Positions 43-54,649 of a DNA stretch of 64,000 nt are shown piece after piece. A program made the translations under genes and the position numbers. How positions within the stretch are numbered: the stretch's first letter is position 1; each line of letters starts with the position of its first letter. The stretch is from Styela clava (Eukaryota > Chordata > Ascidiacea > Stolidobranchia > Styelidae): contig NC_135250.1 in the NCBI RefSeq assembly GCF_964204865.1, forward strand, positions 7,936,001 through 8,000,000, written 5' to 3'. Under the pieces are notes generated by a model. That model had not been told where the DNA came from. It saw nothing but the letters and a program-made list of their open reading frames with translations, and ran no database searches.

Positions 43-3000
43 CTCTGTGATTTTGGATTGAGCACCATGTCTACACTGACTGAACTTCGAACCAGTTCAA
101 TTATCGCAGGAGGTAACATTACATTTTCTTCAGCACAGTATTTGTATATACAGTAGTTTGTAAACAATCATGATATTACATCATTGTTTCTAATTCCCAA
201 CAAAAGATTTCAGACGACCTCGTTGGATTATAACTCAAATCAACTTTTTCATTTTTATATGATGTCTACTATTATTTAACATAGTGGATATGATCAAAAA
301 AAATAATGGCTGATTGTATATGTGAATAAATTCGGACTAAGCATGGATATATAGTTCATATCGCCACTTGAATGACATCTTCCGCGAAGGGCCTACTGGG
401 GTGTACAAATCAAAATAAAGAACACATTTTAAGATGTCTCAGTAATAATCAAATATTTATATATACTCGTCGGTAAGCTATCGATAGGAATTAACAAACA
501 CAATGACATGACCGTGTACGAATGTTAAATAAATTTATACACAGCCTGGAATTTACTTTGATGACTTCATACACAGCAAGGCGCATTCGACTGTTATAGC
601 AAATTTTTATTGAGTATTGGATAAATGTAATAGCATTCGTCTATGAAATCTTTTGAGTCATAACGGAATACGATAAGTAATGATAAAATGCTTCCGATCG
701 TAAAATGAAATTTATATTTGACACAAATATTGTCACAACATTTTACGACGGAAATGTGGAATTTTACGAGTTATGTTCGATAGTAAGGTTGACTTATTCA
801 TATAATATACCAACAACGCACCCACTTAAAATGTTTCGAAATTCCCTTCTAGTTAGGCTTACCATACGTCCCGGTTTAGCCGGGACAGTCCCGGTTTTGA
901 CAAGCGGTCCCGACGTCCCGCCCGGTAGCCTTAAATGTCCCGGTTATGCAGCATAGCAGTCATTAAAACATTTATATATACAAAGTTTTTTTATTTAACG
1001 GAAGCATCCAATTTATTTCTGATTCACTAGTTAACAAAGGAAGGACTACTGTGTTGTTGTGTCATATGTATTATATGTTCATTGCAATAATTTGAAACCC
1101 AACGTAAACAGCACTGCCGATATCTCATCAAAAAGCCAAATGGGATTGTAGAAAGACGAGTGGCAATAATGTTTCCTTAAAACTTAAACCGAGCATTTAT
1201 GGGACCGTTATAAGATGTGCGCTCATTTACTTTAAAACTGAATTCATCATCATTCCGCGGATTTGCCCGTTTGAGTAGAAAGTCTTGTTGTCAAATTGTA
1301 TAAATTCACACTGTTCAAGTAACAGAGCAGAAATCATTTTGACATTATGAGTACAACTATTGCAGTATGGCAACGAAGGTGTATCTCTTATGTCGATTAT
1401 TGAAATGTTCGAATAATTGAAAAGTTATTCTAACTCTCAATGATATTCTGCTTTTATACAAAATGTTTTGCGACCCCGCGTACGAAATAAAAATATAGCT
1501 AGTTTTGAAGGCCGGTATCTACTCGCAAAGATATGAAAGAAGTTTCAGATATTACTGAGGATCTGAATCGAACCAAAGTTTGTTCGATCCTCACTGTCCC
1601 GGTTTTCTGTTCCAGATATATGGTAAGCCTACTTCTAGTGAGAGTCCACAAATTGCTTTAATTTGAGCCTATATAAGATTGTGGCCTCGCTATAAGATTT
1701 GATAAGGTTTTTCTGGCTCGTGGTACTTTATCAGTCACTAAGATATTTCTTTTATTTATTTCAAAAATTTCTGCGGGCTGTATGAGATTCGATCATCACT
1801 CTGAATTTTTTTTTGTAATGATGTAATCATAATAAAAAATGGCGCTCCGTGCCGTGGCTACGCTATCGCATGTCAGCGATCCAGTGGTAGTCATAGGTGC
1901 GGCCTTCGGCCTCCCAACGAGGGGGAAAGCGCTCACGCGCACATTTACAGCTTCCACAATATTTACCCAGGGGAGTTGGATCTGCTGTTGTAGGATGACA
2001 TAATCGATTAGGCCTACTAAACTATTCAACTTAATATACTATTTATAGGTGTGCTGGGTGGCACTTTGGGTTTTATTGCCCCTGAAAGGTTACGAAACGT
2101 TGAGGCAAAGCCAACCACAAAAGCCGATGTTTATTCGTGAGTCAAGTATATATATAGTGAGATTAACTTACTACATCTGTATTATATTCTTCAATACCCT
2201 TTTTCATACTCCACAGGTTTGGAATTTTGATGTGGGAAATTATGGCAGACGAACAGCCGTTTGCAGGTTAGGAATGCTATTACTTAACAACCATTATTCG
2301 TTTCAGTGAGGGTTACAAAAGATTGGAGACTGCTTGGTTTTTGTCCGAACAGACTAAATAGCATGGAAGTAAAATCCATGTGTCTTACATCCAAACCAGG
2401 GGTCACTAAATTACGGCCCGCGGCGTCCTTTCATCTGGCCCGCAATAACACGAACAAAGTGTTGTCCGAATTTTTTTCCAAGAGATGTTTCCCCAGAAAT
2501 CGACTTCGATTTTTATTTCGTAATATTGGCCAATCAGCAAGATGCAAATAATGACGTAACAACAAGAGAGCTATGCTTAAATATATGGACACGTTACGCT
2601 GAAATTCACTGTGGTACGATACGGTAACTCACCAGCAGGCTGGACCACGGAACCTGTTCGCTGATCACGTGATCAATATGTGTTTGCGAAAGCGCCACAT
2701 GGTGGCAAATTCTGATGACGTCATAGCTCGAAAAAAAAGGAATCCCTAAAGTCCCATAGTATCCCATAGTAGTTTTTGAAATTAATAAAAGTGATAGCCT
2801 TCTAGAAAAAAAATTCCATTTTCAACTACTGAAAATTTCAAAGCAATTGGTCCAGTAATCAAAGAGAAAAGCAACCTTTTAAAAACGTGTAAAAGAACAA
2901 GAACAACAACAACATAATATTGAAACGATCGTTATGTCCACTAACGTGTTCAATAAGCCTTTTCGCATCCACTCATACAGATTTTCAGTCGTAGTTGTGA

Positions 3001-6000
3001 AAAATACCTCATTTTTGCGTTTTTGAATGCAATTCGTTAGTTTTTGGTTGTGTTTCAGAAATTTAAGTATGAATCAAATAAGTCAATCATCACTCTGCCT
3101 TCTTAGGAGGTGTAGTGTAATTGCTTAATAATCTAAAATTATTCTAGGAATAGCTGTGATATAGTAGGCTAAAATTCTCTACCGGTACGCAACAGTTTTT
3201 TGCGAAGGATGCACTCTTGGCGCGTGCTTTCGGCGAAACTGTTACTGTGTACGTTTCTTGTGCTTAAATAAACGTCGAACGTGCATTTTGCGCTAATAGT
3301 ACTGTAATCTCTCGTGTACTGCTCCAATTTCACAAGTCACATTAACTTTTGTACTGCTCACATGCGGCTATGCATGACAGCAGTGTTTTGCTAACAGCTA
3401 ACCTCGGGATAGCTTTCTAGAGATGGACATCTTGTATATTTCTTTTTTTATGATGTTCTCGATCTATATTCTGCGATATAGAATTTGATATCCAAATCTT
3501 CAGAAATGTAGAATTTATATTGTTGAATAAATTGAATGGATTTCCCGACTTTTGTGAATTTATTGTATTGCATTGAAAAAAATATTTGTCCGGCCCGTTT
3601 CAACACAGTTTAAGTCATACCTGGCCGCGGTCAAAAAAGTTTGGTGACCCCTGATCCAAACGAACGTCAATATTTGCCCAAGTTCCGCAAAAGTATTATT
3701 GAATGAGTGGTTTCCAAAATGTTAAAAATATTACCCAATATTATCAATTTGTGCTTCCAACTGTATGACACAAAAATAATAATTTCTTATTTCAAGAGGC
3801 AGCTGATGTATGACTCCCTGTGATATATATGTAATATTCGGAAATAAATAAATTGATATTTAGAACTCGGAACAAATGATTATCATTTGCGTCAAGCAGA
3901 GGAGATGCGACCGAATCCGTCGCTCATTCCAGATGTGTTTCCGAATGAACTCTTAACTATGATGCAGTTGTCGTGGTCACAACATCCAATAGATCGACCA
4001 AGTTTTAAAAGTAAGTTCTAAGTTAAGTTGATTCATATAAGACAAAGTAATATTGACCCATAAGTAGGTATACTATTCGCAAACTTTTCTACCAACAAAA
4101 CGATCAAATAATTTTGAAGTGAAATATTAAAACTTCGATTGCATTCTGAACAGAACTCTCCTAGCAGAGTGGCCTATAACACAAGTGATACGGTGAGCAT
4201 TGCCAACTTTCATGACATTTGACAGATTTTGTCAGCAACATAATTGAGGGGACGCTGGCCCAACGACTAACATGCGCTTGCCTTACCGCGCTTATTCGTA
4301 CATGCTTCGAAAAGCTCGCTGTGTGTAAATGTTGATCCAATAGTCTTTTCAATATTATAAATTACAGACTAATATTATGAATACAGACTAACTTATGTTA
4401 GGATGCAGGTACAGTACCACGATCAGTTTGTAGGTTGGGTTGAGTACGGTACCGGTACCTGTTAGTGGTACACGCGTACCGGGACCTGGTAGTGGTACAC
4501 GCAAACCGGTGCTACAGTACCGTCATAGGATCGGATATCGTGTCAAACTAGTCCATAATGTACCTTAAAACACTGACATATTACGGAAAATTACTTTAGT
4601 ACAGTATCTCTCAGATCAGCTACGCCCAACCACATGCGAATGCAAAGCAAAATCGCAGCGTCCCCTCAAAAAGTGGTTCTGGCAGCAGTCTTCACGCTCC
4701 GTTGATTCGTATGAAAGTTGGTGATTGGGACTCAAAAGCCTTATCTTCCAGAACTACTGAATTGTGTAAACGGCAGCAAGTCCATATTCCTTAATAAAAC
4801 ATTGCATTAAGTTGGTATGAGTTTAAAATATGGTAACTTTTTAATAAAGATTTGAGATGACGGAAGATGAAAAGTTTGACTTAAGCAGATAGTTGATTAC
4901 TGTATTCCTATTTTCAGAACTAGATGAAGATATGCTTTCAATAATTGAACGAATTCAAGACTACAAAGGACAAGTTCGGGAGTCCCGAATTATAATTTTA
5001 AGATTATACGAATCAGTAAGAATACTTTTCTCACCCAGCCTTACTTCTAAATCATCTTATCCATTTCATGGTAGGCCAGCCATCAGGATATGTAGAGGCT
5101 TCTTCGAAGACCGATTCAAGGGACCGAAAGTCCCAGTGTACGCACTGATCTGTGCAACCAAGTCATTCTGTTGTTCCAACACAGTGGCGTACCCATGATC
5201 ATTGGTGGGAGAGACATATAGTTTCTTTTGAAAACTCCATAATACACACAATTCAAAAATGGAGAATTCTGGACAGCGAGCAAAACCTTTAAAAAAGTTT
5301 AAAACATGAAAAATATCATGTGCCCGCTCACCAGCACTCACAAAACAAATAACAAAGATCACAAACCTAGTTAAACGAGGCTTGGGCCAGAAATCGGAAC
5401 CAAGAGGATTTTTAGCCGCGAACGATTTCTGAAATATTTGTGGTAATGCAAATACTGTACCAGTATTGCATTTGCAAAAAATCTTTCTCATCAAAAGTTC
5501 ATATACAGATACAAAATATTATAGACCATCAATTTCTGTATACAGCATTCAAACATATTATTATCGTGTTAGAGGGAAGAAAGGTGTCGGTGAGTTCTCT
5601 AGCCCCACGACCATTACTTAGCTTATATGACTTGAGAGGCTTCCATGAGGGTGTACTTTGTAGACTCATATTACTGTTGAGTGTTGACATTTGTCAGCGG
5701 TTACCAACTACCTTTCGTTACCTCATCACACAGGTTATATCTCGCCATAACACTAAAAAAGTTTCAATGTAACGGTTTCAATCGTCCTCATGGATATATA
5801 TATATATCAAATTCTAACACACCATAACTTTTCTGAGTGATTCAATAGTCTTGCTGCACACTAGCACAATTGTGTCAGTGTGCAGCAAAACTCTCGAATC
5901 ACTCAGGATAGTTATCTTCACTCTTGCATCCTTGCATTATATGCATACGGATCCACCGGCACAAAGGCGTAGAAGGATGAGTATAGTTGGTCCCATAGAA

Positions 6001-9000
6001 ACCCAATCGACAGCACATCATAACTTTGTACTTTTCTTTCTTTACTCAGGTAGGTGGTCAAACGTCATCCAGTCTCGGGTTTCACCAGCCATGCGATTCA
6101 AGTGTACAAATTGAATCATCTGTACCACAAAATGGAGAAGAAACATCTCCGAATACGTCACCCAAAGCGGTCGAAGAAAACACAACGCAAAAGGAGCACC
6201 CTATATCTATGCCCTGTTTAGATAATGAAGAGAGCGAATTTTTCCTCCCTCCTCCCCATTACACACTACAGGATGATACTGTTTTTGTTTCCGATTCCAT
6301 TCGGGCTGTACGCCCTCTGACTTGTGGTAAGCGTTTACAGTGCATGACTAATAGGCAAGAGGACTACTTCGCCAGTCACTTCTAAAATAGGAAATTTATT
6401 TCAGCTATATATATATAAGTAGCAAACATTCATATATACCGTATGTCGAACTCATGCATTTTATTTCAGGACATAGACTGAAAACCTTACTTCAGTCAAA
6501 AATCTTTGTCTTCATTGTTTCCGTTTTTTTATTATGTGGGATATCATCCGTGGGAATATGGTTGCTCGTATCAGAATTCAGTAAGTAACTCAAGATGACG
6601 GTTGTAATAATACACAGGCTACTGCAGTAACTTAGATAGAAACACTAGCAAGTATGACGAAATACTAGTGCCGGGCAACTAAAAATTGTTGAATGGAATG
6701 ATTTCGACGGACATATCAAAAGCAAATGTGGATGGCGAGAAACACCCCCAACCTGAACCCCAGTATATTGCGGGTAAAATATGACGTCATATCTCCGCTT
6801 CAACGGGCACGAGGCATACGATCTTGGTATCAATCGTTAGTGTGTTTCGAGCCCGTTATTATGAGCTATCGCTCGAACCATTCGAGCGTATTGGGCGATT
6901 TAAAGGATGTTCCCCTTTTTTGATATTTTTCTGCTTTTTTCTCTGCAGTTGTATGTTTGTTCATTGAAAATTGAAGCTCGTAAACCACCAAAAATAGCTA
7001 GGGAACATTCGTTCTTTGTTTTGAGACTTCAGAGTAGACTTTGGACTATTCATTTGTCGTCGACACAGGGAATAGTGTTTATGACTGCGGACGAGAGTCG
7101 TCTTTTTATTATTGTTATGCAGTTGATTTCGGTTCTAAAGGGATATTGTTATATAAGACGTATTTGTAAGTTTATTAGGATTCTGGTAGCTATAAATCAG
7201 ACAAGGTACCGTAATGGAGAGTGAGAGCGATTTTGATGCAAGGTAAGTGCAATACCTGCATGCATTCTTCTGCTATTTTTTAAAAAAAATTCTCTTTATA
7301 TTCTGAGAAAATGATAGTTTGTAAGCTGACTGTGGCAATTGTTTGAGCAAGCCTCATAGCTTGGACTTGTTATTAGTAATAATCCAGTCGTTAATCAACG
7401 CAATTTTTCTTTTAGTTCTGGTGACGAGTGGGAAGAGACGAGTGAGTCATCTAGCTCCGATGAAGAGGTTGTCCCAGTCCCGGCTAGGCGCTATGCTGCA
7501 AGCACTGAAGATGTACCAGCTGAAGCAGCAGCGTCAACGGGCGGAATGTTCGGAGCTTCGAGCCCTCGGCGATCACGAGTTTGCAGGGTGTGTTCTGAAC
7601 GGGACAAAAAAGAAAGAGAAAGAGAAGGCAGTAGCAGAAAATTGAAACAAAAAAGGTCTTCATATTGGTGTGAGAAATGCCAGGTAACACTTTGTGTTAC
7701 CCCGTGTTTCGAGAAGTTTCACACCCTCCCAAACTATTGGGAATAGGAATCAAAACTTATGTGCAATATTGTGATGTTGACTTTATCAGAGACTGTGATT
7801 TTTGTTGACTTTGCCAGAGACTGTGATTTTTGTTGACTTTGTCAGAAACTGATTTTTCTTTTTACGTGCACCAAGGTGTTTTATGTACATACTGTGTAAT
7901 TCTTCATTTTCGCTATTATTATTTCGTATGCACACTTTCTTTTCACATTGTTTTTCACCACTGTTATTCACATTCTTTCAAAACTGACTGAATTTAATTT
8001 TTTCGTGTCATTTTTTACTCGTATGTAAATATAAATATCTGATTTTTCGAAAACAAAATTTTCAATTTTTTCGAAAATTTCTGCCATTTACCTGAAATTC
8101 ATCAGCCTACCATGACAATTTCATGTCAGTTAGAGAAAAACTGCAAATTTTCCCAATAAGGTTACACCTCTACCCTTCTTGTGAGTAAGTTTGATATGTG
8201 TAGTGTTTATAGTTTGTGTGTGAGTATTTTGTCTTTGAAAGTGGTCATTTTAGTCATATTTCGGACGAAATTTGAGAGCCGTAAAAAGTGTGTCAAAGCT
8301 GAGCCATGCCACTGGCTTGCTGTTAGAACAGGTGTGAAAAACTTAGTTTCCTGGTGCTGTGCTTGGAGTTGCCTTTCAAAAAAACCAAGAACTGTAGGGA
8401 TTGGGCCTATGGTTAGCTTTTGACAATTTTTTAAAGTTTGTGAATTTTGTTTGAAAACGCCAGGAATATAGTGTTTTTTCGATATCGCGGTCCAGGGCAG
8501 AAAGAGTTAAATTTCATTTTCCACTAAAATTCTAGTCTACTTTTGTTTCCAGCGATAAATATTATATATCTGTAGTCCTAATCGGGTATAGAAAATTTCA
8601 ATATTATCTTTGTCCTATTACGGTCAACTTTTTTTTAGAAGGTGGCCAAGCAGATCCGTACAGTAGATGCATATCAATCGGGGGAACTTGTCACAATTGG
8701 TATGAGCACGACTGCTCCGGGGGTTATAAAACCGGCTTATGTGACGGGGAGTTTTCGAACACTCAATGCTGTCTTCCGTGCAATGCGGCATGTATGAAAT
8801 ATGTGTCAGATTGTTTTATCTTATTTACTAGTTTGTTAATCATATTAATAAAAACCTGAAAAGTCTTAATGATATAAAGTATTGTTTTGCAGGTAAGGAC
8901 GCTGAAGCTAGCTATAAGGACATCCCCTGCGAAGAGATTAATGGGATTTGTAAGCATAAAACTAATTATTGCTCACAAACATACATTAAGGAAAAGTGTG

Positions 9001-9934
9001 ATGGTCCGGAAGACAGGCGATGTTGCCCACCCAATCGTGAGTGCGAGAGTATTTAGAAATGAAATATATACAAATATCTATATATTATTATCCCAAGAAG
9101 TTTTGAGTTGAAATACTGAAGAAATACGATGTCAAAATTATTCAGATAATAGTTATAGAAACCACCAAATATTTAGCTGCTAAATTTTCTAAAATAACTC
9201 TATTATTGACGCGTTCATTCATTTTTAGAAACAAATTACGCTCGTCTTTTCGATGATTGTATGATTTGTATATGTAACGCCTGTTAAATCGTAAATACTG
9301 TATGGTGAAATCAATTGATTTTATGCTGCCTGAAGATACATCGCAAAATATGCAGATCCGACCAATGACATTGACCAACGTGGTACCAAATTATTTGGTC
9401 ATAAACGCGGTGCACGCTTCAGTGGTAGCGGCTCAAACACTGACATATGTCTATTATCATTTCAGCTGCAGACACAGAATGCACAAAACGGGGAGGGATG
9501 TGTCAAAATTGGGTCGAATATACTTGCGTTGCTGGATACAGGAGTGGATTATGCATCGGTGGGTCCGCGATTAGATGCTGTTTGCCATGTGATACCAAAT
9601 GTAAGTAACTTACATATTTTTCTTCCTACCGCTAGTCAACTTCTGCCATCGTTAATTCTTATTTATGCTTAGTTTTCTTAATTTTAATTTTTTTCCGATC
9701 GTAAATCTCAGCATTAAATTTCATCGTGAACCCATACGGTACAAGAACGATAACTTCATACTGACCGGTACTTATGCTATCTTATACGCAGGCTATGATG
9801 ATGAAGCAATATTTCATGATCCGGCATGTGATAGTTTGCATGGGACTTGTATGGATAATACTAATTATTGTGCCAGTGGATATCTACCCGAAAAATGTCA
9901 TGGACCGGACTCCAGGCAATGCTGTCCCCCATAG
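43..9934 (+). CDS. RIPK/TKL-like kinase with TM helix and C-terminal Cys-rich ectodomain (3' part of gene)
   Basis: Eleven GT-AG exons join in one open frame: 43-112, 2049-2136, 2217-2266, 3864-4010, 4918-5015, 6050-6326, 6470-6580, 8639-8791, 8893-9036, 9466-9600 and 9792-9934 (stop TAG). They give 471 residues; the 5' part, with the N lobe and catalytic loop, lies before base 1. Visible residues 1-137 are the C-terminal half of a protein kinase: CDFGLS (DFG Mg-binding motif), GGTLGFIAPERL (APE motif), KADVYSFGILMWEIM (F-helix region) and SWSQHPIDRPSF (final Arg motif). This pattern resembles RIPK-type TKL kinases. A Ser/Thr/Glu-rich linker (152-243) follows, then a TM helix (~253-275) and four six-Cys modules (285-471). 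K/R before the TM and their lack after it predict a cytoplasmic kinase and an outside C terminus. Family by motif reading; function as a receptor is inference. No AATAAA was found close downstream. Confidence 0.82.
854..1631. mobile_element. non-autonomous hAT-type element, 778 bp
   Basis: A perfect 13-bp terminal inverted repeat (TAGGCTTACCATA ... TATGGTAAGCCTA) is flanked on both sides by the 8-bp duplication CTTCTAGT (846-853 and 1632-1639). The 8-bp duplication and short TIR fit the hAT superfamily. Several CCCGG motifs lie near the left end (about 870-945). No transposase is encoded. It lies in the first visible intron of the kinase gene. Confidence 0.85.
2397..3653. mobile_element. non-autonomous hAT-type element, 1257 bp
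   Basis: The element begins CAGGGGTCACTAAATTACGG and ends with TTTGGTGACCCCTG, flanked by the 8-bp direct repeat ATCCAAAC (2389-2396 and 3654-3661). The CAGGGGTCAC/GTGACCCCTG ends followed by GGCCCG are typical of the Charlie-like branch of hAT. It contains no transposase ORF and lies in the intron after exon 2217-2266. Two partial relatives occur at about 44879-45185 and 47933-48200. Confidence 0.85.
4011..4917 (+). other. intron of the kinase gene
   Basis: This intron runs from GTAAGT at 4011 to ttttcag before 4918. Within it, 4436-4520 holds a small imperfect repeat of GGTACC-type words (GGTACCGGTACC, then two copies of TAGTGGTACACGC). I see no coding exon or complete mobile element. Confidence 0.6.
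5016..6049 (+). other. intron of the kinase gene with hairpin
   Basis: The intron separates the last kinase exon from the linker exon and holds the 5833-5906 hairpin and a short TA repeat near 5800. ORFs on both strands lack splice context or recognisable motifs. An extra small exon inside cannot be excluded, but the flanking exons already join in frame at phase 0. Confidence 0.55.
5833..5906. repeat. 74-nt near-perfect hairpin
   Basis: The arm CTGAGTGATTCAATAGTC plus TTGCTGCACACT pairs with its downstream complement (AGTGTGCAGCAA ... GAATCACTCAG) with only a few mismatches over 30 bp. The loop is itself palindromic (ACACAATTGTGT). It could be a miniature inverted-repeat element or a pre-miRNA-like fold. 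The core GAGAGTCTTGCTGCACAC recurs near 34422-34440, which favours a dispersed repeat. Confidence 0.7.
6050..6326 (+). other. juxtamembrane linker exon
   Basis: This 92-codon exon is rich in S, T, E, Q, N and P (for example GEETSPNTSP) with no recognisable fold, so it is probably a disordered tether between the kinase and the membrane. Acceptor tttactcag and donor GTAAGC are both good. It starts in phase 0 and ends in phase 1, which makes it the switch point between the mixed-phase kinase exons and the all-phase-1 TM and ectodomain exons. Confidence 0.75.
6470..6580 (+). other. transmembrane exon (single helix, predicted N-in/C-out)
   Basis: A 111-nt phase 1-1 exon encodes HRLKTLLQSK followed by about 23 hydrophobic residues (IFVFIVSVFLLCG then ISSVGIWLLV) and SEF. 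The basic residues lie on the N-terminal side, so the positive-inside rule puts the upstream kinase in the cytosol and the downstream Cys-rich part outside. A helix this far into the protein acts as a signal anchor rather than a cleaved signal peptide. Confidence 0.8.
6900..8510 (+). mobile_element. piggyBac-family element, right end defined, left end uncertain
   Basis: The right boundary is GGGCAGAAAGAG followed by TTAA (8507-8510), the target site that piggyBac elements duplicate. A TTAA at 6900-6903 is the only left candidate close to the ORF, but the sequence after it does not match the inverted right end, so the left end may be deleted or further away. The coding remnant at 7214-7746 supports the family call. 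Confidence 0.5.
7214..7746 (+). pseudogene. piggyBac transposase remnant: N terminus joined to C-terminal Cys-rich domain, catalytic core missing
   Basis: Two exons (7214-7242 with donor GTAAGT; 7416-7746 with acceptor cttttag) encode 119 aa. The start MESESDFDAR and the acidic Ser/Glu stretch (SGDEWEETSESSSDEE) are typical of piggyBac N termini. The end carries CRVC, WCEKC, LC-x3-PCF and FH, the Cys/His zinc-binding domain found at piggyBac C termini. The ~400-residue DDD catalytic region between them is absent, so it cannot transpose by itself. The reading frame and splice sites have survived, which is unusual for dead DNA. It might be a recent internal deletion or a DNA-binding remnant kept by the host. 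Confidence 0.75.
8639..9934 (+). other. four-module six-Cys ectodomain (A-B-A-B)
   Basis: Each exon (8639-8791, 8893-9036, 9466-9600, 9792-9934) encodes one small module with six cysteines ending in CC. Modules 1 and 3 share GG-x-C, NW, GY and GLC and end CCLPC. Modules 2 and 4 share G-x-C, TNYC, Y, KC-x-GP and end CCPP. The order A-B-A-B implies duplication of an A-B pair. The internal introns are phase 1. I recall similar short C..GG.C..C..GLC.G..CC motifs beside peptidoglycan-acting enzymes of marine invertebrates; that link is memory-based and uncertain. Secretion and disulfide bonding are inferred from the Cys spacing and the TM topology. Confidence 0.78.
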
Positions 9935-15900: not shown

Positions 15901-18900
15901 TAGGTTTCTGTATGACTCTTAATAGGGACTTTCAATCTGGCCCGCCTGATGTTGCCACAGCCCAACTAAAACCGAATTTCAATGTTTTAGCTGAAAAATT
16001 TCTCTACGAATTTGTTTAGATTGCGATTAAATTTAGTTTTGGCACGAGGCTCATTGTTTTCACCTTTTGCTTTCGTAACACGTAAATATTGTTCATAAAA
16101 TGTAACTTTTTACGTCACACTTGGCATGGCATAGAGTAGGAAAATAGTTAAGCATAGAGTAAGAAAATAGTTAGGTACCTTGGCATGGCATAGAGTAGGA
16201 AAATAGTTAAGCATAGAGTAAGAAAATAGTTAGGTACCTGGACACTCTATTGGTGCGTTGCAAGTTCTTATTTGATATTTCAGGCCATCGCATTCTTTAC
16301 CACCATCTTCAGGGCTTGGGGAATCGCATTCACGAGTTCTGTTTTGGATGCCTTCACCGCAAGATGCGCTACACTGAAACCAAGGCCGCCAGGAACCCCA
16401 TTCGCCATCAACTGTAAAATGAAACAATCTATAATTTCATTGCCCAATCAAAGTAGGGTGTGGTGGTTAGCGTGTTTTTCGTGGTATTTTGTCATCGCAT
16501 TCGCAGAATACGAGTTTAGTCCTGATTCGGCGTTCAATCGGACGGTGTCCACCGGAACCGGAAAGTAATAAATTATGTTCCATATATATATAATGGTTAT
16601 TTCGTCATTCAGCTTGGAACTTTACCAAATTTGAGAGAATTTAGAGAATTATTGTTGCACATCTAAATAATTAAGAATGCGCAATATAAGATTGGTGCGC
16701 GGTATAATTGTGTGGATTTACAAGCAATATCTAGACGTGAATAACATATTTTACCTCAATACAACACTATACGATTTGAAATGTAAGCATAAAAAATGCT
16801 TTTTATCACAAAAATAGGGTTGCTTACCTGGTTGAGACGATTCCACCAAAGGTTCTGCAAAATAAAAAATCATACCATTAAAATCGTTTATCCACTAACC
16901 AGTCAAAACACTTGTCCCAAAAAAATGTTATGTATATAGACATGGTAATGACTTTGATTAAATGGTTGCTCTATTTTCTACAGTTTTTATTCCAGAAGAT
17001 AATTGGGGCTCATTGTTTGTTTGACTGTAGTAAGACATTACCCAAATAAATTATTCCCAAGGTAAAAATTAACTTATATTCAATTATCCAACTTCCAAGA
17101 CCGGAAATTTGGGAAGCCACCACCTCTAAAATAAAACCTATTTCGCTGTGTATCCAATACACATTTTTCAAATAGCTACCCCAAAAAAATCCTCAAATTT
17201 GAGTAAATTTGTTTAAAATGAACAATTAATACTTACGTAGAACTGATGGCCATACATAAAAATACACAATAAGTCCAATTGCCAAGAATACAGTAATACC
17301 GATAGCGACAGTGAGAGCAATGCACTGCCATCTTGGACAAAACGGTCGTTTCGTTGATACGTAGGATGTTTTAGAAAACCCAAGTCCAGTAGAAGCAAGA
17401 CCACTGCTTCCCAAGGTCACGTGTGAGTTATGCTTCGTTGATTTCTTATTTTTCGTACTGTACAAATTGTTACCGCGGTAAATTGGGTCTGTCGGGGTCT
17501 TATCTTTTTTAAATGGATTAAATGACCCTTTTCTTCCTTGAGCAGAGGTGCGACTGTTAATTCTTGGTATGGAAGACTTCTGGGGATTAGAATAGCTCCC
17601 CGTTCCTGCCGTAAAACTGTCATTGTGTTCGTATATCGTTACCCCGTTATCAGGTGCATCTGACCCAGACCCCAGGCGCAGAGCTGATTCTGTAGGCAGA
17701 AGCAAAGCCCGTTGTCCGTATTCTTCACGGTGCGCCAGAGAGCCATTATCTCCGCGTGAACTTTTACTGCTCTCTCCATTTGAACCTCTGCTTTCAATTG
17801 TCCTTTGCAACAATCTGGATTGTTGACTACCGACGTCATTCATGACGTCACCTTGTTCGTTTCCGTAGGCAACAGGAGACTCAAAACCTCTTGCAACGCT
17901 TTTCTTAGCAGCTGCAGCATTGTAACCATATCCAGTACCAGCGGGTCCGTATGTGTCATATGACATACCTAGAGTGTTGAATTCACATCCTGGAATAAGA
18001 TGAAAAAATGAGTAAATTTTAAGGTTGTTTGTTAAAACGCAAATGTTTAAAATGAAATGCAATGATTTTCTATCAAACATGAGCCTATCCCGATGGATTT
18101 CGAGATATATAATAGGTAGAAATTTGATCAATGACTAGGATGTGTTTAGGTCATAAAACAAATAGATGGAGATTTCATTACGACAAAATTGATAATTCAA
18201 GAAAGATTAGTAGATAATGCGTGAGTGAAACAAGATTAAATATTATTTTTTTAAATGTGATTGATGTCAATTCAACACTCCCTCCACTTTTCCTTTAGTC
18301 ATCATAAATTACAATGATGCGTCTCGTTTACTGAATTGCGCGCCAAAACTTTTTTTATGTGGCCACTCATATATTTCCATCGATTACGCTTTGTTTATTA
18401 CGATTCTTTCATGTCGTATGCTTGATCCACGACCAACCATTGTTTACTTTTTAAATATTGGCTTTCGTTAAGTACGTGATTGTAAAATCAAACATAAAAT
18501 CTGAAGTTATCTGTAAATGAAGTTTTCCTTTTTGATGAGTCCAAAACAAGAATTACAACGCGAATACTCAAGTACACATTTTTATAGATTCAATATATAA
18601 ATGCTAATGCCATTTTGATATACAGATTGAAAATTCGAATAGACACAAAAGTTGATATGAAATTCAAATGACATTTTTAGTTCATTTCATATAATTTTTT
18701 AGTGCCTCAGACAAATTTTTCAAAAATGCTAGTTTTCTCCATTGAAACAGAGCTGGCGGATTTATAAATCTACTTTCGCAGAGGAAATCTCCAAGAGGTA
18801 TTGTCTGTCGACTTATTTACGATTTGATATTATTCGTACTGAAAAGCAAGGGTTATATTGTCAAATGCTTCAAGTCTAGGGCAGTAAGGATGGCATACCC

Positions 18901-35704: not shown

Positions 35705-35710
35705 TTTATT
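35705..35710 (-). terminator. AATAAA overlapping the stop codon of methyltransferase copy 1
   Basis: The minus strand reads AAAAAATAAATG over the final lysines and stop, so the stop TAA forms part of AATAAA. The same arrangement is at 41427-41432 (copy 2) and 46434-46439 (copy 3). Confidence 0.5.
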
Positions 35711-36545
35711 TTTTCATAAAAATGGAAAACAATGAAAAGGTTATTTTCACAGCAACATCCTCATCTTTCATATTTGGAATTTCCCAATACTTCTTCAACT
35801 TTCGGAATAATGTATCATAGGCATTCACCGGGAAACTTTCAGAAAATTTCTGAAATATTGGCACAACCATACAGTCTTTTTTAAACTCTTTAAAGTTAGT
35901 GCGAATCTCAAATTTCAATTTGTCATCCCACCATTTCTGCAATTTTGTGTCGATTCCGTTGTATAAAGCTTGAAAGCGATCACAAACGTGTTGCTCCGGG
36001 TGATTCATTTTTTTCACGTAATCAGTTAGCGGTTGAAAGTAAAAGTCCTGGAAAACACCATATCCTGATTTTGAATCTATATCGCCGTTTTCCAATTCAA
36101 TATCTGATATCACAAAGCCGTATGCAGCAACCATGCCTTTGGGCTTTAGCACCCTTTCGCATTCCTCTACAAATTTTGATACATCCATGAAATGCAAAGA
36201 AAAACAACTTGTGACCAAATCGACGCTTTTGTCGTCACAGGGAAAAGCATCGGAGTTGCCAACGACGTAAGCCACGTTTTCTTCCAATTCCATCTCCTGG
36301 GCTAGTTTTATTTGCTCAGAACTGACGTCAAATCCTAAGATTGAATTAAAATTAGGCGAAAAAGCTCTGGTCGACCTTCCACTACCGCATCCAACGTCGA
36401 GCATAAATTGAAACTTTACACTCTCATCGGATGTTTCGCCGTAGCATTTTGTTAACTCGTATATAATTTTTGTAGTTATCGCAGTATCCAACGGTGATTT
36501 CTTGGAGAATTTCATAGCGGAGTCTCTGCTGCTATATTCATTCAT
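35706..36545 (-). CDS. class I SAM-dependent methyltransferase, copy 1
   Basis: An intronless 279-aa protein. Motif I is LDVGCGSGRSTRAF (~49-62, SAM-binding glycine loop). Motif II is GFDVSSEQ (71-78) with Asp73 in place to hold the SAM ribose. NSDAFP (~97-102) and ECERVLKPKGMVAAYG (~128-143) complete the fold. The C-terminal ~120 residues are a cap that should choose the substrate. It resembles small cytosolic Methyltransf_11 proteins of the Dictyostelium DDB_G0268948 type found in many animals; the substrate is unknown. The start was set at MNEYSS because copies 2 and 3 start at the equivalent MNEFSS; 14 further codons upstream are open. The stop overlaps an AATAAA. Confidence 0.88.
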   Translation of the reverse strand: MNEYSSRDSAMKFSKKSPLDTAITTKIIYELTKCYGETSDESVKFQFMLDVGCGSGRSTRAFSPNFNSILGFDVSSEQIKLAQEMELEENVAYVVGNSDAFPCDDKSVDLVTSCFSLHFMDVSKFVEECERVLKPKGMVAAYGFVISDIELENGDIDSKSGYGVFQDFYFQPLTDYVKKMNHPEQHVCDRFQALYNGIDTKLQKWWDDKLKFEIRTNFKEFKKDCMVVPIFQKFSESFPVNAYDTLFRKLKKYWEIPNMKDEDVAVKITFSLFSIFMKK

Positions 36546-38620
36546 AGTATTTTTGTGAATAACAAAATTTGGATGCCGTACATACACGTAACTTTATATT
36601 TTGTAATCTGGTTAAATATATCAGTAGATTACAAGCCTGAGAAGTCATAAAAGTAATTTAAAGCACTGAAAATTGGATTTTTCAAATTACTATCCCTTTT
36701 CAATTCCAATTAGGGTCACCTATAAACAGTATCTGCAGTATTTTTGTGGGGGAAAGTCATCACATTTGTACAAAACAACATATTGCGTTCCTCGTCTCAA
36801 AGGTATGCTTCTTCGCCCGAATAGATTAAGAAGGACAATCGCAAAGTTGTTTTATCAGTTTCCCATATATTTTTTCAAACAAATTAATAAGTTCTATTTA
36901 TAACCTTATTTCGACGATAAATGCAAAACAACACCACCAACTTTAATTAATTTATAAACAGACTTGACATATTCTTTTTTATCGCAATTGTACGCCACAA
37001 TATACATTTTCTGTCGCACTAAATCTCAAAAATCTGGCATATATTACCTATTTGTAAATATATTGTCCTGGCTCATTGAAACTGGTCGCCGACCAAAAGT
37101 GTATAAAGCACCGTTTACTTCGATTCGCCTTCGATTGCCTCGCCTTGCTGGAAACAGAAACGCTGATTCGCGATAACGGTTAGTTATAAAATGCGAAGAT
37201 CGACGCGAATTACCAATACAGATCCGTAACACAAGAGCAATAAATCAAATAATCGATCAAGCGGATATGTCTCTGTAGAGTTGACAAACGCTTAGTTCGT
37301 GTTACGATTACGATAATCCATCCTACACGTGAGTTGATGTTTCGCAGAAATATGTATTACATCAGTAACAACGATGTCTTCTTGTCCCAAATATTTATCG
37401 TTTGAATGGATAAAAAAATAATTACGATAAAATGAATGAATTCGTCTACATTTGAAAAAAAATCTACCTATCTAACCCTAAATAAAACTTTAAAGTAATT
37501 ATGCAGTTTTAACGTAATGACGCCTTTATATTTTGATAGGGTCAAGACAATATCGATATTAATACTAATTTATCTTGGCAACAACGAATCTAATAATTGA
37601 TATATTTTTTACTTTCTGATCCTTTTTTTAGGACCCGTTTATTTTCGAAATATGTAAAACTAATGAAGAAATGCCATGAAGTTTTATCACAATTTACTCG
37701 GGTGATTGGTGTGCGTATCCAACCGGTAGTAAAAGGTTTGGCGCAATTTGAAAATTTATTCATGACGTCATATAACATATTTACATAACCGTGAAATGTC
37801 TATTATGAAGACATAATAGATTATTGTGACCTCACGAATGACATAGCCAAAGGCTTTTAATTATCTAAATTCGACCCTGCTAGTTGCACAAGTGGTTACA
37901 CATATTGCAATTTTTACGCCATTACTGATTGATTGGTCATTGTTACGGAAATAAACAAAGAAATTGATTATCGGTGGAATATATATATCCAATGAATCCA
38001 TATCCATACTGAAACTTACTTCATAGGAAAGAATGCCCCTCTCTGCGTGTTATTACCCCGTGTTCCCAACAGACTTCTTCAGAGGTCGATTATATACAGT
38101 ATATTGTAATGCCAAAGGTTCGTATATAAATATATATTGTAAAGTTGCACGATCGAATTGAATCCAAACAAATATAAGGAAATATACACTTAAACCTTAA
38201 TACCAGTTATACGGTTAAAATTCAAATCAGTATTTCTGCGAAAACATGAAAAACACTATATTCTCAACTCTTAAACGAAGGCTGAAAACACGTCACAACT
38301 TCCTCGATACGAAGAACGGTCGATAACAAAGAAGGAATGCTGAGACTTGTCGCTTGTGGTGATAAATCATAATCAGGGAAAATAGGTCACTGACCTATTT
38401 ATTGAATTCACATACTATTAATTCAAAGTGGTTAAATAACATCAAAATCCATAGTTATCAAAGTTTCAAGTGCTTAGTGAGTGACCCCCCATGAAAGTCA
38501 TGATCCAACCCTGCCTGTATCGCTTACCTTTTTTATGGATATTGAACAACCAATCAGATATAAATTTAATATTATTTAAAGTGCATTAAATATGCAAGTA
38601 ATGGCAAATATTGTAAATAA
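36546..38620. repeat. upstream flank of methyltransferase copy 1, duplicated at copy 3
   Basis: Long stretches match 47256-49980 in the same order: AATCTGGCATATATTACCTA near 37020-37055, the CTTAGTTCGTGTTAC block near 37290, and GCACGATCGAATTGAATCC near 38145. The gene and about 2 kb of 5' flank were therefore copied together. The flank presumably includes the promoter. The ORFs in it are not conserved between copies. Confidence 0.7.
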
Positions 38621-41427: not shown

Positions 41428-42267
41428 TTATTTTTTCATAAAGATGGAAAACAATGAAAAGGTTATCTTCACAGTAACATCCTCGTCTTTCGTATTTGGA
41501 ATTTCCCAGTACTTCTTCAACTTTTGGAATAATGTATCATAGGCATTCACCGGGAAACTTTCAGAAAATTCCTGAAATATTGGCACAACCATACAGTCTT
41601 CTTTAAACTCTTTGAAGTTAGTGCGAATCTCAAATTTCACTTTGTCATCTCGCCATTTTTGCAATTTTGTGTCGATTCCGTCGTATAAACCTTGAAATCG
41701 ATCACAAACGTGTTGTACCGGATGATTTAATTTTATAGTGTAATCAGTTAGCGGTTGAATATAAAATTCCTTCAGAACACCATATCCTGATTTTAAATCT
41801 ATATCGCCATTTTCCAATTCCATATTTGATATCATAAAGCCGTAGGCAGCAACCATGCCGTTGGGCTTTAGCACCCTTTCGCATTCGTCTACAAATTTTG
41901 ATACATCTATGTATTGCAAAGAAAAACAACTTGTGACCAAATCGACGCTTTTGTCGTCACAGGGAAAGGCATCAGAGTTGCAAACGACGTAAGACACGTT
42001 TTCTTCCAATTCTATTTCCTGGGCTAGTTTTATTTGCTCAGAACTGACGTCAAATCCTAAGATTGAATTAAAATTAGGCGAAAAAGCTCTGGACGATCTT
42101 CCACTGCCGCATCCAACGTCGAGCATAAATTGGAACTTTACATTTTCATCAGATGTCTCGCCGTAGCATTCTGTTAACTCATATATAATTTTTGTAGTTA
42201 TCGCAGTATCCAACGGTGATTTCTTGGAGTATTTTATTACAGCATTTCTGCTGCTAAATTCATTCAT
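41428..42267 (-). CDS. class I SAM-dependent methyltransferase, copy 2
   Basis: An intronless 279-aa protein from MNEFSSRNAVIKYSKKSPLD, colinear with copy 1 without gaps and near-identical along most of its length. The SAM loop DVGCGSGRSSRAF, motif II GFDVSSEQ and the ECERVLKPNGMVAAYG strand/loop are intact, so it should be active. Differences gather in the C-terminal cap (for example LKEFYIQPLTDYTIKLNHPV against VFQDFYFQPLTDYVKKMNHP in copy 1), the region expected to touch the substrate; this could reflect changed specificity (inference). It shares the stop-in-AATAAA ending. Its upstream flank is shorter than in copies 1 and 3, meeting another duplication block near 42400. Confidence 0.88.
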   Translation of the reverse strand: MNEFSSRNAVIKYSKKSPLDTAITTKIIYELTECYGETSDENVKFQFMLDVGCGSGRSSRAFSPNFNSILGFDVSSEQIKLAQEIELEENVSYVVCNSDAFPCDDKSVDLVTSCFSLQYIDVSKFVDECERVLKPNGMVAAYGFMISNMELENGDIDLKSGYGVLKEFYIQPLTDYTIKLNHPVQHVCDRFQGLYDGIDTKLQKWRDDKVKFEIRTNFKEFKEDCMVVPIFQEFSESFPVNAYDTLFQKLKKYWEIPNTKDEDVTVKITFSLFSIFMKK

Positions 42268-43624
42268 AGTACTTTTGTTTATAACAGAAATTGGATGCCG
42301 TATATACCTAATTTTATGTTTTGTAATCTGGTTAAATATATTAGTAGATTACAAGTTTAAAAAGTCATCAAAGTAATTTAAAACACTGAAAATCGGATCA
42401 ATCGAACCCGACGAAGTATCTCAAATGCAAGAGGGCGACGAGATCGCTATCGCCAAACTAATAGGAAAGAAGCGAGGTGTCTGATCTAACGGCGTTCACC
42501 TCCAACTTAAAATATCTCAATGGACAGATAACGAACCTCAACGTTCCTGAGCAAAGTGCCCCGTGTGACTCAAATCAATTCATATGGACAGTTACATATG
42601 GCGCAGACCAGTAAACAGTCAAATATGGAAGTGCTTGCGAACGCGAAGTTGGCGTGTTCAGCGTAATTTATTAATAACATAAAATAGATAAATAATATTG
42701 AGATTTCCTAACGACAGTATTCAATGTTTTTTTGAAGTTAACATTCGTTAATAAACAAAAGCATGACGCAATGTTGGTTGCTTGTCCAAATATTTTAAAC
42801 ACACATATTAAAACCGGTGTACACTAAAATATTTATACATACTATACCAGAACATGAAATATGAAACAGAGAGTCGGGAAATGCAACTATCAGCAATCAT
42901 ATTTTGTGCTTACTTTGAAGAGTTCAAGCATGAACGATCAAAAATATTTTTATATTCATCCACAAACCTCATGCTCTAATACAATACCTTTGCCTATCTA
43001 TAATCACTTCAATCACAATACTACGCATAAAACCCGTTTTGCAATCAATCTTCAATAGATTACCAGCTAGTGAGATAAGATTTCTAACTCTGGATTTTGC
43101 AAAATCGAAACAGGCTGTCGTGTGCATACATCGCAAATTACTAATAAGAAAAGAAAAATTGGTAATATTACAAACAAATTAAACACCACAGGAAGGAACG
43201 AATTACCTCTTCCTCCATTTGCTGATGGAATTCGGTATTCATAACCAGTTGGGAAACACAGCCCTTGAGCCCGTGTTCTTTGATAAGCAGGGAAATATAT
43301 TGCTCTCGTTTCATACATTTTTGGTATATAAATTGCGAGCATATGATTTAATATCCACATACTTTGTGTAGATTGGTATTTGCAATGATCGGTTCATTTC
43401 GAGTGGTGATTAGTACAAACTGTGAGCTTGTGTATCAATATGTGGAACAGTGAAAATTCCACAAATTAAAAAGGGCTAGACTGGACAAAATCTAAACTGG
43501 ACAAAATCTAAAACTGTTCACATTCCGAGGATACATATACAGTAGTTGGTATTATCCTAAAGTTTCGAAACCATGCGATAGAAAATTTTACCTATCTATT
43601 TGTACTGTATGTATCAATGTATGT

Positions 43625-46434: not shown

Positions 46435-47255
46435 TTATTTTTTCATAAAGATGGAAAACAACGAAAAGGTTATCTTCACAGTAACATCCTCGTCTTCCGT
46501 ATTTGGAATTTCCCAATACTTCTTCAGCTTTCGGAATAATGTATCATAGGCATTCACCGGGAAACTTTCAGAAAATTTCTGAAATATTGGCACAACCATA
46601 TAGTCTTCTTTAAACTCTTTGAAGTTAGGGCGAATCTCAAATTTCACTTTGTCATCTCGCCATTTCTGCAATTTTGTGTCGATTCTGTCGTATAAAGCTT
46701 GAAAGCGATCGCAAACGTGTTGTTCCGGGTGATTCATTTTTTTCACGTAATCAGTTAGCGGTTGAAAGTAAAAGTCATGGAAAACACCATATCCTGATTT
46801 TGAATCTATATCGCTGTTTTCTAATTCAATATCTGATATCATAAAGCCGTAAGCAGCAACCATGCCTTTGGGCTTTAGCACTCTTTCGCATTCGTCTACA
46901 AATTTTGATACATCCATGTATTGCAAAGAAAAACAACTTGTGACCAAATCGACGCTTTTGTCGTCACAGGGAAAAGCATCGGAGTTGCCAACGACGTAAG
47001 ACATGTTTTCTTCCAATTCTTTCTCCTGAGCTAGTTTGATTTGCTCAGAGATTGAATTAAAATTAGGCGAAAAAGCTCTGGTCGATCTCCACTGCCGCAT
47101 CCAACGTCGAGCATAAATTGAAACTTCACACTCTCATCAGATGTTGCGCCGTAGCATTTTGTTAACTCATATATGACTTTTGTAGTTATCGCAGTATCCA
47201 ATGGAGATGTCTTGGAGTATTTTATTGCAGCATCTCTGCTGCTAAATTCGTTCAT
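46435..47255 (-). pseudogene. methyltransferase copy 3, frameshifted pseudogene
   Basis: The first ~57 codons (47255 down to about 47090) match copies 1 and 2 up to LDVGCGSG. A one-base deletion near 47087 (GATCTCCACTGCC where copy 2 has GATCTTCCACTGCC, plus strand) then shifts the frame. The rest stays open in the shifted frame down to 46435. A second lesion near 47049 removes 18 bases, in frame, that encode part of the GFDVS motif, including the Asp that binds the SAM ribose. Even without the frameshift the SAM site would be damaged. The long intact downstream frame suggests recent inactivation. Confidence 0.8.
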
Positions 47256-52212: not shown

Positions 52213-53058
52213 TCAGGGTAATTGTTTCAAAAATACGATGAACACAGAAAAAGTCAATTTGATTTTGACATCTGCATCGTTTTCTTCCTTCATCTTCCAC
52301 AACTCTTTCAACTTTTTGCACAAAATATCAATCGGGCTTTCAGAAAAACTTTCATGGAACTTGCGAAAGATAGGAATGCACTGGAATTGAGACTTGAGGT
52401 CATTCAGAGTACACGTATTGTCAAATTCTACAATATCGTTTCTCCACTTTTTCATTCCAGTAATGCTATCATAAATTGACTGATATTTGTCAATGGCGTG
52501 CTTTTGTGGATGATTCAATTCGTGAACGAATTCAGTAAGAGGTTTCAGGTAGTATTCATTATAAATATCCATTCCAGACAGAGAAATATTCTCATTGCAA
52601 TCGTCAAGTATAAGATCCAAAACCGCTAGACCATACGCAGCTACAATTCCATTGGGTTTTAACACCCTCTTGCATTCGGCAACAAATTTTTCTGTGTCCA
52701 TGTAATGAATAGCAAAAGAGCTTGCAACCAAGTCTACGCTTTCGTTTTCACATGGAAAATTGTCTTCTGTTCCGGTCACATACGTTACGTTATCATTCTG
52801 TTCTGATTCTTGTGCCATTTGAATTTGTTCCAGACTTATATCAAATCCGACAACTGAATGGAAATACGGCGCGAAGATTCGCGTTGATCTTCCACTTCCA
52901 CATCCAGCGTCTACCATCTTCTGAAATGGGATATTTTCTTCGACAGGCATATTGCAACTCTTTCGCAGCTCATGCATAATTGTCTCCGGCACTGCTTCTG
53001 CCCATTCTCGTTTCTTAGCGTAACATGTAACAATATCTCGGTTATTATATTCGTTCAT
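52213..53058 (-). CDS. class I SAM-dependent methyltransferase, copy 4 (divergent)
   Basis: An intronless 281-aa protein from MNEYNNRDIVTCYAKKREWA. It has the same plan as copies 1 and 2 but is clearly older: DAGCGSGRSTRIFAPYF (motif I), GFDISLEQIQMAQES (motif II with Asp), CENESVDLVASSFAIHYMD and ECKRVLKPNGIVAAYG. All SAM-binding motifs are intact, so activity is likely; the substrate is unknown. It lies in the same orientation, ~5 kb upstream of copy 3, without the duplicated flanks, which suggests it separated first and the others arose later by duplication. It ends LKQLP and has its own 3' AATAAA. Confidence 0.88.
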   Translation of the reverse strand: MNEYNNRDIVTCYAKKREWAEAVPETIMHELRKSCNMPVEENIPFQKMVDAGCGSGRSTRIFAPYFHSVVGFDISLEQIQMAQESEQNDNVTYVTGTEDNFPCENESVDLVASSFAIHYMDTEKFVAECKRVLKPNGIVAAYGLAVLDLILDDCNENISLSGMDIYNEYYLKPLTEFVHELNHPQKHAIDKYQSIYDSITGMKKWRNDIVEFDNTCTLNDLKSQFQCIPIFRKFHESFSESPIDILCKKLKELWKMKEENDADVKIKLTFSVFIVFLKQLP

Positions 53059-54649
53059 TTTGTGAAAGTTATAACTTCGTTACCGGTACCGGGTATCTGT
53101 AAACATAGTGATAGTGCACCTTAAAAATTTATATGAAATTTGTGACCTTTTGTAGACGGGCCTGCTGAAAAAAACACTCCCGCTACCGCTCAAATAAAAA
53201 TAGTAATTATACAGTCAATGTTGGGGTAGAGAATGCAGATTAATTACTATTTTTTTTTTATTTCAAAACGCGGCGAGGTTTGTTTTTCCAAATCTCATAT
53301 TTTAGTGGATAGGGCTTTCTATTAACGATCCAAAATGTGTACTAGCTTTGTACGACGGTAGTGAATTATGATGCCGATATTCTCACTATCATATATAGAA
53401 CACCACTTGATACGACGTCAAAGCACTCAACCTTCTCGGCTGCATCTGTTTCCTGAATAATATCAGTTTTTGTCATGCTACCGCGCTGAGAGTAATCGAA
53501 ACTCCTTGCTATATAACTACTCTGGTGATGTCGTTTTCAACTGCTGTGTAACGGTCTATTGATGGTTCCTAACCCGATTGATAAGTTAGTTGCTACGTCA
53601 ACGACCATTTAATTGAAGATTTGTTTTAAGAGCTATAACATTATCGTTTCGTAATTAGAGCGGCTGGATACTTGATGTTGGTATAATTAGAGATAATGTG
53701 GGTTACTAGGCATATTTCGCTATTATTTTCTTGGAAAAAACTACAACCATGAACGAGGATTTTAAATTATGGGATGGATATTTTTCTTAGTAAAGACTAC
53801 AAAATTTTAACAGCCCAAACGCAGAGTACTGGTAGGAATGTTTTGGCTTGCCACAGAAGATTGTACTTTGTTAGTCGACACATATTCCTGCCAATATTGC
53901 ATTACATTATTAAAAGCATGTTTACACTATTGCGAGAGTAGAATAATGTCGAACTTGCTTGTTGCTGCTCTCTACCCCCTGTAGGGCCTTTAGATTAGTC
54001 TACACTCTGTTGGATTATACGACAAGAAGATTAAATCAATTCATTTCTGATTCTTTTACACTTGACTTGCTTTTAGGAAATCCTGTCACTGCCGGATCAT
54101 CAACTAAATTTGCTTCGTTTTTGGTCTTCTCCAAACCTTTAACCCCAATGACTTGTATGACACTTATATCTGTTTACGACACACACACAGCAATGAATTG
54201 GCGGGTAGGTATTTATGTGCGGAAAAAACGTCTGACATCGGCTACTGTGGAGTGTAATAATCCACACTACAGGCATATTGCGTGAACGTCGAGCAACGGT
54301 ATCAAAATATATCACCACTATTTCTCGCCTTTCCACGTTATACCGATATGACGTGTCTTTAGACACTGATCCGAGCTTTGGAAAAATTTCTGATCCGCAT
54401 ACGTAGAAAGAAAAAATAATCTACGTCCTCGGGCGATACTTCAGTCCAGCAGTGGGGCTAATCTGTTTCAGAGCTCGGTATGTTTATACATAATAGTTTC
54501 GCTTGTGTCGCTTCGCTTCGGTTTCAATCAAAGCGAGACAAATATAATGAGGAGAGCGATATTTGTGTAATTACCAAACAGGTAACTTGAAATATGATAT
54601 ATATACATATATCGGTAATTCTTGAACGATCCGTGTATCTATTGTATGA

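Follow-up and report, generated by a model that had tools for sequence, protein, structure and literature searches.

At the start of the window, by which we mean the whole 64,000-nucleotide stretch of Styela clava DNA that was analysed (G000:C1:7936001-8000000), lies the larger part of a gene whose product is probably a RIPK-like receptor kinase with type II topology (N-in, C-out; one membrane pass), in which an exchangeable C-terminal ectodomain would act as a sensor in the place of the RIPK adaptor domain. An earlier note on this DNA had described a RIPK-like kinase placed first, a single transmembrane (TM) helix and a C-terminal cysteine-rich array, all joined in frame. This order is borne out by a 14-exon gene model, whose 641-aa protein carries a kinase domain at residues 21-293, a TM helix at 425-443 and an ectodomain at 461-639. 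Besides, both the order and the intron phases recur in three paralogues, hereafter P1, P2 and P3, located at a second locus (C13:15040101-15065863) that was matched when the genome assembly (376.6 Mb, 379 contigs) was searched with a kinase fragment. COX1, sought in this assembly with a view to checking the ascidian mitochondrial code, gave no match.

Window positions 43-9934 hold the last 11 exons of the gene model, all on the plus strand and all bounded by AG/GT. Once joined, they form a single open frame from LCDFGLS to a TAG at 9932-9934, with many stops in both other frames of the spliced product. The DFG motif and the activation segment are encoded by exon 4 (43-112), and exon 5 (2049-2136) runs from GTLGFIAPERL, with the APE motif, to DVYS. 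Exon 6 (2217-2266) encodes FGILMWEIMADEQPF, exon 7 (3864-4010) the end of the kinase C-lobe with WSQHPIDRPSF, and exon 8 (4918-5015), kept in P1-P3, the end of the kinase domain with LDEDMLSIIERIQDYKGQVRESRI. Exon 9 (6050-6326) provides a linker that is taken as cytosolic, and exon 10 (6470-6580) a basic flank followed by the TM helix, with a mean hydropathy of 2.64. The Cys modules then come one per exon, namely module 1 in exon 11 (8639-8791), module 2 in exon 12 (8893-9036), module 3 in exon 13 (9466-9600) and module 4, together with the TAG stop, in exon 14 (9792-9934).

Exons 1 to 3 lie in the stretch directly upstream of the window (L009, G000:C1:7926001-7936000), at its positions 8099-8280, 8659-8881 and 8988-9092, that is, 909-1,902 bases upstream of window base 1. 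The kinase N-lobe comes from these exons, which supply VAMK and HLDLKSDN as well as the Gly-rich loop and alpha-C Glu regions. The earlier note had seen half a kinase, since the window boundary cuts the gene: the DFG and APE motifs that it read are indeed present, but the kinase is complete once these three exons are added. The 5' extension that it had proposed as a check thereby yielded the catalytic Lys (in VAMK) and the Asp of the HLD motif. Met1 of the protein falls at the kinase N-lobe, the ATG of exon 1 is preceded by an in-frame stop five codons upstream, and nothing in the sequence suggests that a signal peptide is encoded by a further exon on the 5' side. A single open frame is found in 8 of the 14 exons, with consistent phases, which, together with the recurrence of the structure in the three C13 paralogues, places the gene model beyond chance.

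The kinase assignment rests on matches to PF07714 (E 5.6e-42) and PF00069 (2.6e-40) over residues 21-293, nearly the whole Pfam model being covered. Among the best 60 of 2431 PDB matches, the first 29 belong to RIPK1 (7.4e-35), RIPK3, RIPK2 and RIPK4, and the next is MLT/MAP3K20 (6e-27). The RIPK-like character is thus assigned by best match, the tree of nine kinases described below containing only kinases of the same genome. Catalytically competent kinases are marked by the VAIK Lys, the HRD Asp and the DFG Asp; the corresponding Lys51 (VAxK), Asp155 (HLDLKSDN) and DFG Asp173 are invariant in all four paralogues, as are the alpha-C Glu region and the catalytic-loop Asn, a pattern consistent with an active enzyme.

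In RIPKs other than RIPK1, the kinase is N-terminal and the adaptor part (death domain, CARD or ankyrins) C-terminal. RIPK1 itself is described with its kinase first and its RHIM and death domain last (PMC12119088). The window protein resembles them in the position of its kinase, whereas a TM helix and an ectodomain stand where the RIPKs have their C-terminal adaptor part. In the light of this, the "reversed topology" proposed before holds against the usual animal receptor kinases only, RIPK1 being kinase-first as well. No match to a death domain, CARD or ankyrin was obtained in any of the four proteins (Pfam, E up to 1), and a RHIM in the linker was considered and rejected, the core pattern [IV]Q[IVL]G being absent from all four. 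A kinase whose C-terminal module is a Death domain is encoded in the same genome (C2:20785725, L005; Death domain E 9.6e-14). This protein shares with the window protein an N-terminal kinase of the same Pfam family and a separate C-terminal module, but differs from it by the Death domain and in its catalytic motifs, which read HLL and DIG.

Regarding the membrane, each of the four proteins contains exactly one separate 19-residue stretch with a mean hydropathy of at least 1.6. None has a hydrophobic N terminus (over 11 residues, the highest hydropathy in the N-terminal region ranges from 0.57 in the window protein to 1.05 in P1), so that neither the signal peptide nor the second TM helix that would have reversed the topology is found in the gene model. 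Cysteines are concentrated behind the helix, with after/before counts of 28/5 in the window protein, 29/4 in P1, 20/4 in P2 and 20/3 in P3, and P2 and P3 carry five and six sequons after the helix, respectively. The positive-inside pattern noticed earlier is recovered for the window protein, with five Lys and Arg in the 20 residues before the helix and two in those after it; P3 gives the same 5/2, the rule being nearly even for P2 (5/4) and even, and thus undecided, for P1 (3/3). Taken together, the TM, charge and cysteine patterns favour a kinase inside and an ectodomain outside. Animal receptor kinases of the RTK and TGF-beta receptor type have a signal peptide and an N-terminal ectodomain, whereas the gene models of this family show neither, the ectodomain coming after the TM helix.

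In the ectodomain of the window protein, the Cys modules, each encoded by a single exon, form two A-B pairs. Four modules had correctly been counted before, but only modules 2 and 4 (type B) have the six cysteines then attributed to all of them, modules 1 and 3 (type A) having eight. Models of modules 2 and 3 tentatively predict a beta-defensin-like fold, and the modules resemble beta-defensins and platypus defensin-like peptides in cysteine order and length; type A modules differ by their two extra cysteines. Beta-defensin disulfides pair 1-5, 2-4 and 3-6. In terms of sequence, no match is significant, module 2 giving a weak match to the platypus peptides. Among ten modules scanned with curated defensin profiles, one matched PF17858 (14.8 bits, cut-off 25) and PF08131 (10.9, cut-off 18), both below cut-off, and the other nine matched none. 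Searching the PDB with profiles of 14 type B and 15 type A modules returned no defensin, which disfavours homology at the sequence level. Competing sub-threshold matches were obtained for module 1 with midkine/pleiotrophin (PF05196, E 0.023; 1mkn, E 1.3), and for one C16 module with granulin (E 0.68). Cys-module exons in A-B arrangement are also clustered at G000:C18:5601486-5647787 and C16:19287970-19290807, with no kinase match in the stretches read; perhaps these clusters encode secreted peptides.

The C13 paralogues comprise 14 exons each and encode 676 aa (P1) and 681 aa (P2 and P3); in their models, search ranges were set by hand around tblastn matches and open frames and splice sites were chosen by script, and the last exon of P1, which reads into a hydrophobic tail, is unsure. 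All 13 intron phases are the same in P1 and the window gene, P2 and P3 agreeing for introns 1-11. Kinase identity to the window gene amounts to 62% for P1, 51% for P2 and 49% for P3. The ectodomains, in contrast, fall into two classes, with 60% identity between the window protein and P1, 66% between P2 and P3, and 19-24% across: two Sushi repeats are present in both P2 (E 6.4e-19) and P3 (6.6e-22), besides a further Cys-rich part that has no Pfam match, and the two classes are taken as unrelated. In the tree of nine kinases, the four genes form a clade (100/100), in which the window gene groups with P1 (91/91) and P2 with P3 (98/97). Most simply, the ectodomain would have been exchanged once, at a phase-1 intron that follows the TM exon. 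Phase 1-1 exons are typical of shuffled extracellular modules; in both the window gene and P1, exons 11-13 are of this kind, as is the first Sushi exon of P2 and P3.

Comparison of P2 with P3 gives pN/pS values of 0.147/0.572 for the kinase and 0.173/0.715 for the ectodomain. Those of the window gene with P1 are 0.225/0.787 and 0.229/0.758, respectively, with a pS so near saturation that no ratio is quoted. In both halves pN is far below pS, which disfavours a dead fusion; constraint on the linker and the TM helix is looser than on the kinase and the ectodomain.

The family counts at least four genes. A genome search with the P3 kinase, in which 128 of 190 candidates were scored, returned at least 111 matches (E up to 0.001), so that four is a lower bound. 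Outside the four genes, the matches consist chiefly of long open frames that encode kinases about 25-37% identical; C9:16669032 reaches 47%, and matches of 27-36% in short frames lie at C17:1696377, C13:11082690, C1:11978123, C1:5161747 and C8:10050810. A fifth member was suspected at C18:12564475 (46% match) and rejected, the region (L044) containing a different kinase with HLNL for HLDL, which is preceded by a roughly 299-aa open frame that runs off the examined stretch. Two double-kinase open frames (1119 and 1129 aa) occur at G000:C13:10389388-10395719, with two tandem matches to the kinase query in each.

Several further features surround the window gene. Upstream, among five frames scanned in L009 621-2043 and 4149-4445 (G000:C1:7926621-7930445), one Sushi match is clear (E 6.2e-11) and another sub-threshold (E 0.0034). 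The Sushi frames precede one that combines a hydrophobic stretch with a short acidic tail, and together they may form a separate Sushi receptor gene on the same strand. Five similar intronless SAM-methyltransferase-like ORFs are present, one ahead of the window gene on the same strand (L009 5781-6635, +) and four in the window (35706-36593, 41428-42348, 46435-47133 and 52213-53079 (-)); all three of those scanned were confirmed by Pfam, and the copy at 46435 looks degraded on its 5' side. A 302-aa open frame at 17226-18134 (-), with a long polar N-terminal part, a TM-like end and no Pfam match at E 0.01, is possibly another N-in membrane protein. At 60978-62534 (+), a 518-aa intronless frame matches aminotransferase class I/II (E 3.3e-35), its product resembling alanine aminotransferase. 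Finally, an ORF in intron 10 of the window gene (7360-7746) matches a DDE_Tnp_1-like zinc finger below threshold (E 0.0013) and is perhaps a piggyBac-type remnant.

Three other explanations of the window gene were considered. It is rather unlikely that the same layout operates in an endosomal or secretory compartment, where the modules would face the lumen and sense ingested material rather than being exposed at the cell surface. The acidic dileucine pattern [DE]xxxL[LI], an endolysosomal sorting signal, does occur in the linkers of P1, P2 and P3; however, it is absent from the window gene, and such short patterns arise by chance. That the kinase is a scaffold or dead, the protein mainly serving as an adhesion or decoy molecule, seems quite improbable. 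The Gly-rich loop is degenerate in all four proteins (GRGGMS, ASGGMA, DSGGMA) and P2 and P3 have DPQ at the position expected for APE, but the invariance of the VAxK Lys, the alpha-C Glu region, the HLD Asp, the Asn and the DFG motif speaks against it, as does the low pN of the kinase.

That two genes were merged, one for a cytosolic RIPK-like kinase and a downstream one for a TM/Cys or secreted Cys protein, has very little probability. The parts lie 1.0 kb (5016-6049) and 2.1 kb (6581-8638) apart, and a crude scan found two signal-peptide-like starts in intron 10 of the window gene (7081 and 8196), against a background of 13 in 96 kb of strand, or 0.27 per 2 kb. For this reason, the argument that the Cys exons here are devoid of a secretion start of their own, such as kinase-free loci have, was dropped. 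Yet order, strand and phases are alike in all four gene models, the donor at the end of exon 8 is in phase 0, and the frame runs on through exons 9 and 10. Moreover, the same scan found no such start in introns 8 and 9 of the window gene, nor in P1 between the TM exon and the modules, so that the two intron-10 starts are not a shared feature.

To our knowledge, all known animal receptor kinases have their ectodomain first, and known RIPKs receive their signals through cytosolic adaptors. In the open-licence literature, covered mostly by title and opening of the abstract, no earlier description of a kinase-TM-ectodomain architecture in animals was found. The earlier statement that no family with this order had been described was nevertheless too wide, for the bacterial PASTA kinases have it: in PknB, the kinase spans residues 1-279, the TM helix 331-354 and the external PASTA part 354-627 (PMC4632501). 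Both share an N-terminal kinase, one TM helix and a C-terminal domain that is external in PknB and probably so in the S. clava family. They differ in the linker (about 130 residues in the window protein versus about 50), the animal RIPK-like kinase and the intron-rich genes, and no PASTA match was obtained in the four proteins (Pfam, E up to 1). The likeness appears to be one of layout, for which PknB offers a precedent that does not imply descent. As for tunicate receptors, the Botryllus fester/FcoR allorecognition receptors bear Sushi domains like P2 and P3, but they are described as type I proteins that contain Ig domains along with tyrosine motifs, and no kinase domain is mentioned in the portion of the source drawn upon (PMC12065747).

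The type II receptor kinase could be put together and work as follows. The RIPK-like kinase would have been retained at the N terminus, as in the RIPKs, and followed by the linker and one TM helix, the two A-B pairs of beta-defensin-like modules forming the extracellular sensor. Ligand binding or clustering of the ectodomains would bring the N-terminal kinases together, and the adjoining kinases, phosphorylating each other in trans, would pass the signal on to downstream partners of the RIPK type. Clustering driven by a ligand outside would hence substitute for clustering driven by an adaptor inside, which seems the least costly account of the data. Among paralogues, the sensor would be swapped behind the TM exon at the phase-1 intron, with four Cys modules in one case and two Sushi repeats and a Cys-rich tail in the other, the kinase being kept.

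More tentatively, and with somewhat less than even confidence, these genes could be seen as plug-in innate immune receptors, in which defensin-like or Sushi sensors are exchanged at a fixed phase-1 intron on one RIPK-like kinase-TM chassis, thereby providing adaptor-free wiring to a RIPK-type kinase in tunicates, a group in which RIPK1 with RHIM and death domain is reported as not found (PMC12119088). If the kinase-first layout with its interchangeable ectodomain holds, the family would represent a second receptor-kinase solution in animals, convergent with the bacterial PASTA kinases, would show how the outside can be coupled straight to a RIPK-like kinase, and would serve as a natural chimera in which the triggers of RIPK-type kinases can be tested. 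For tunicates, it constitutes a candidate direct link from the cell surface to RIPK-type signalling.
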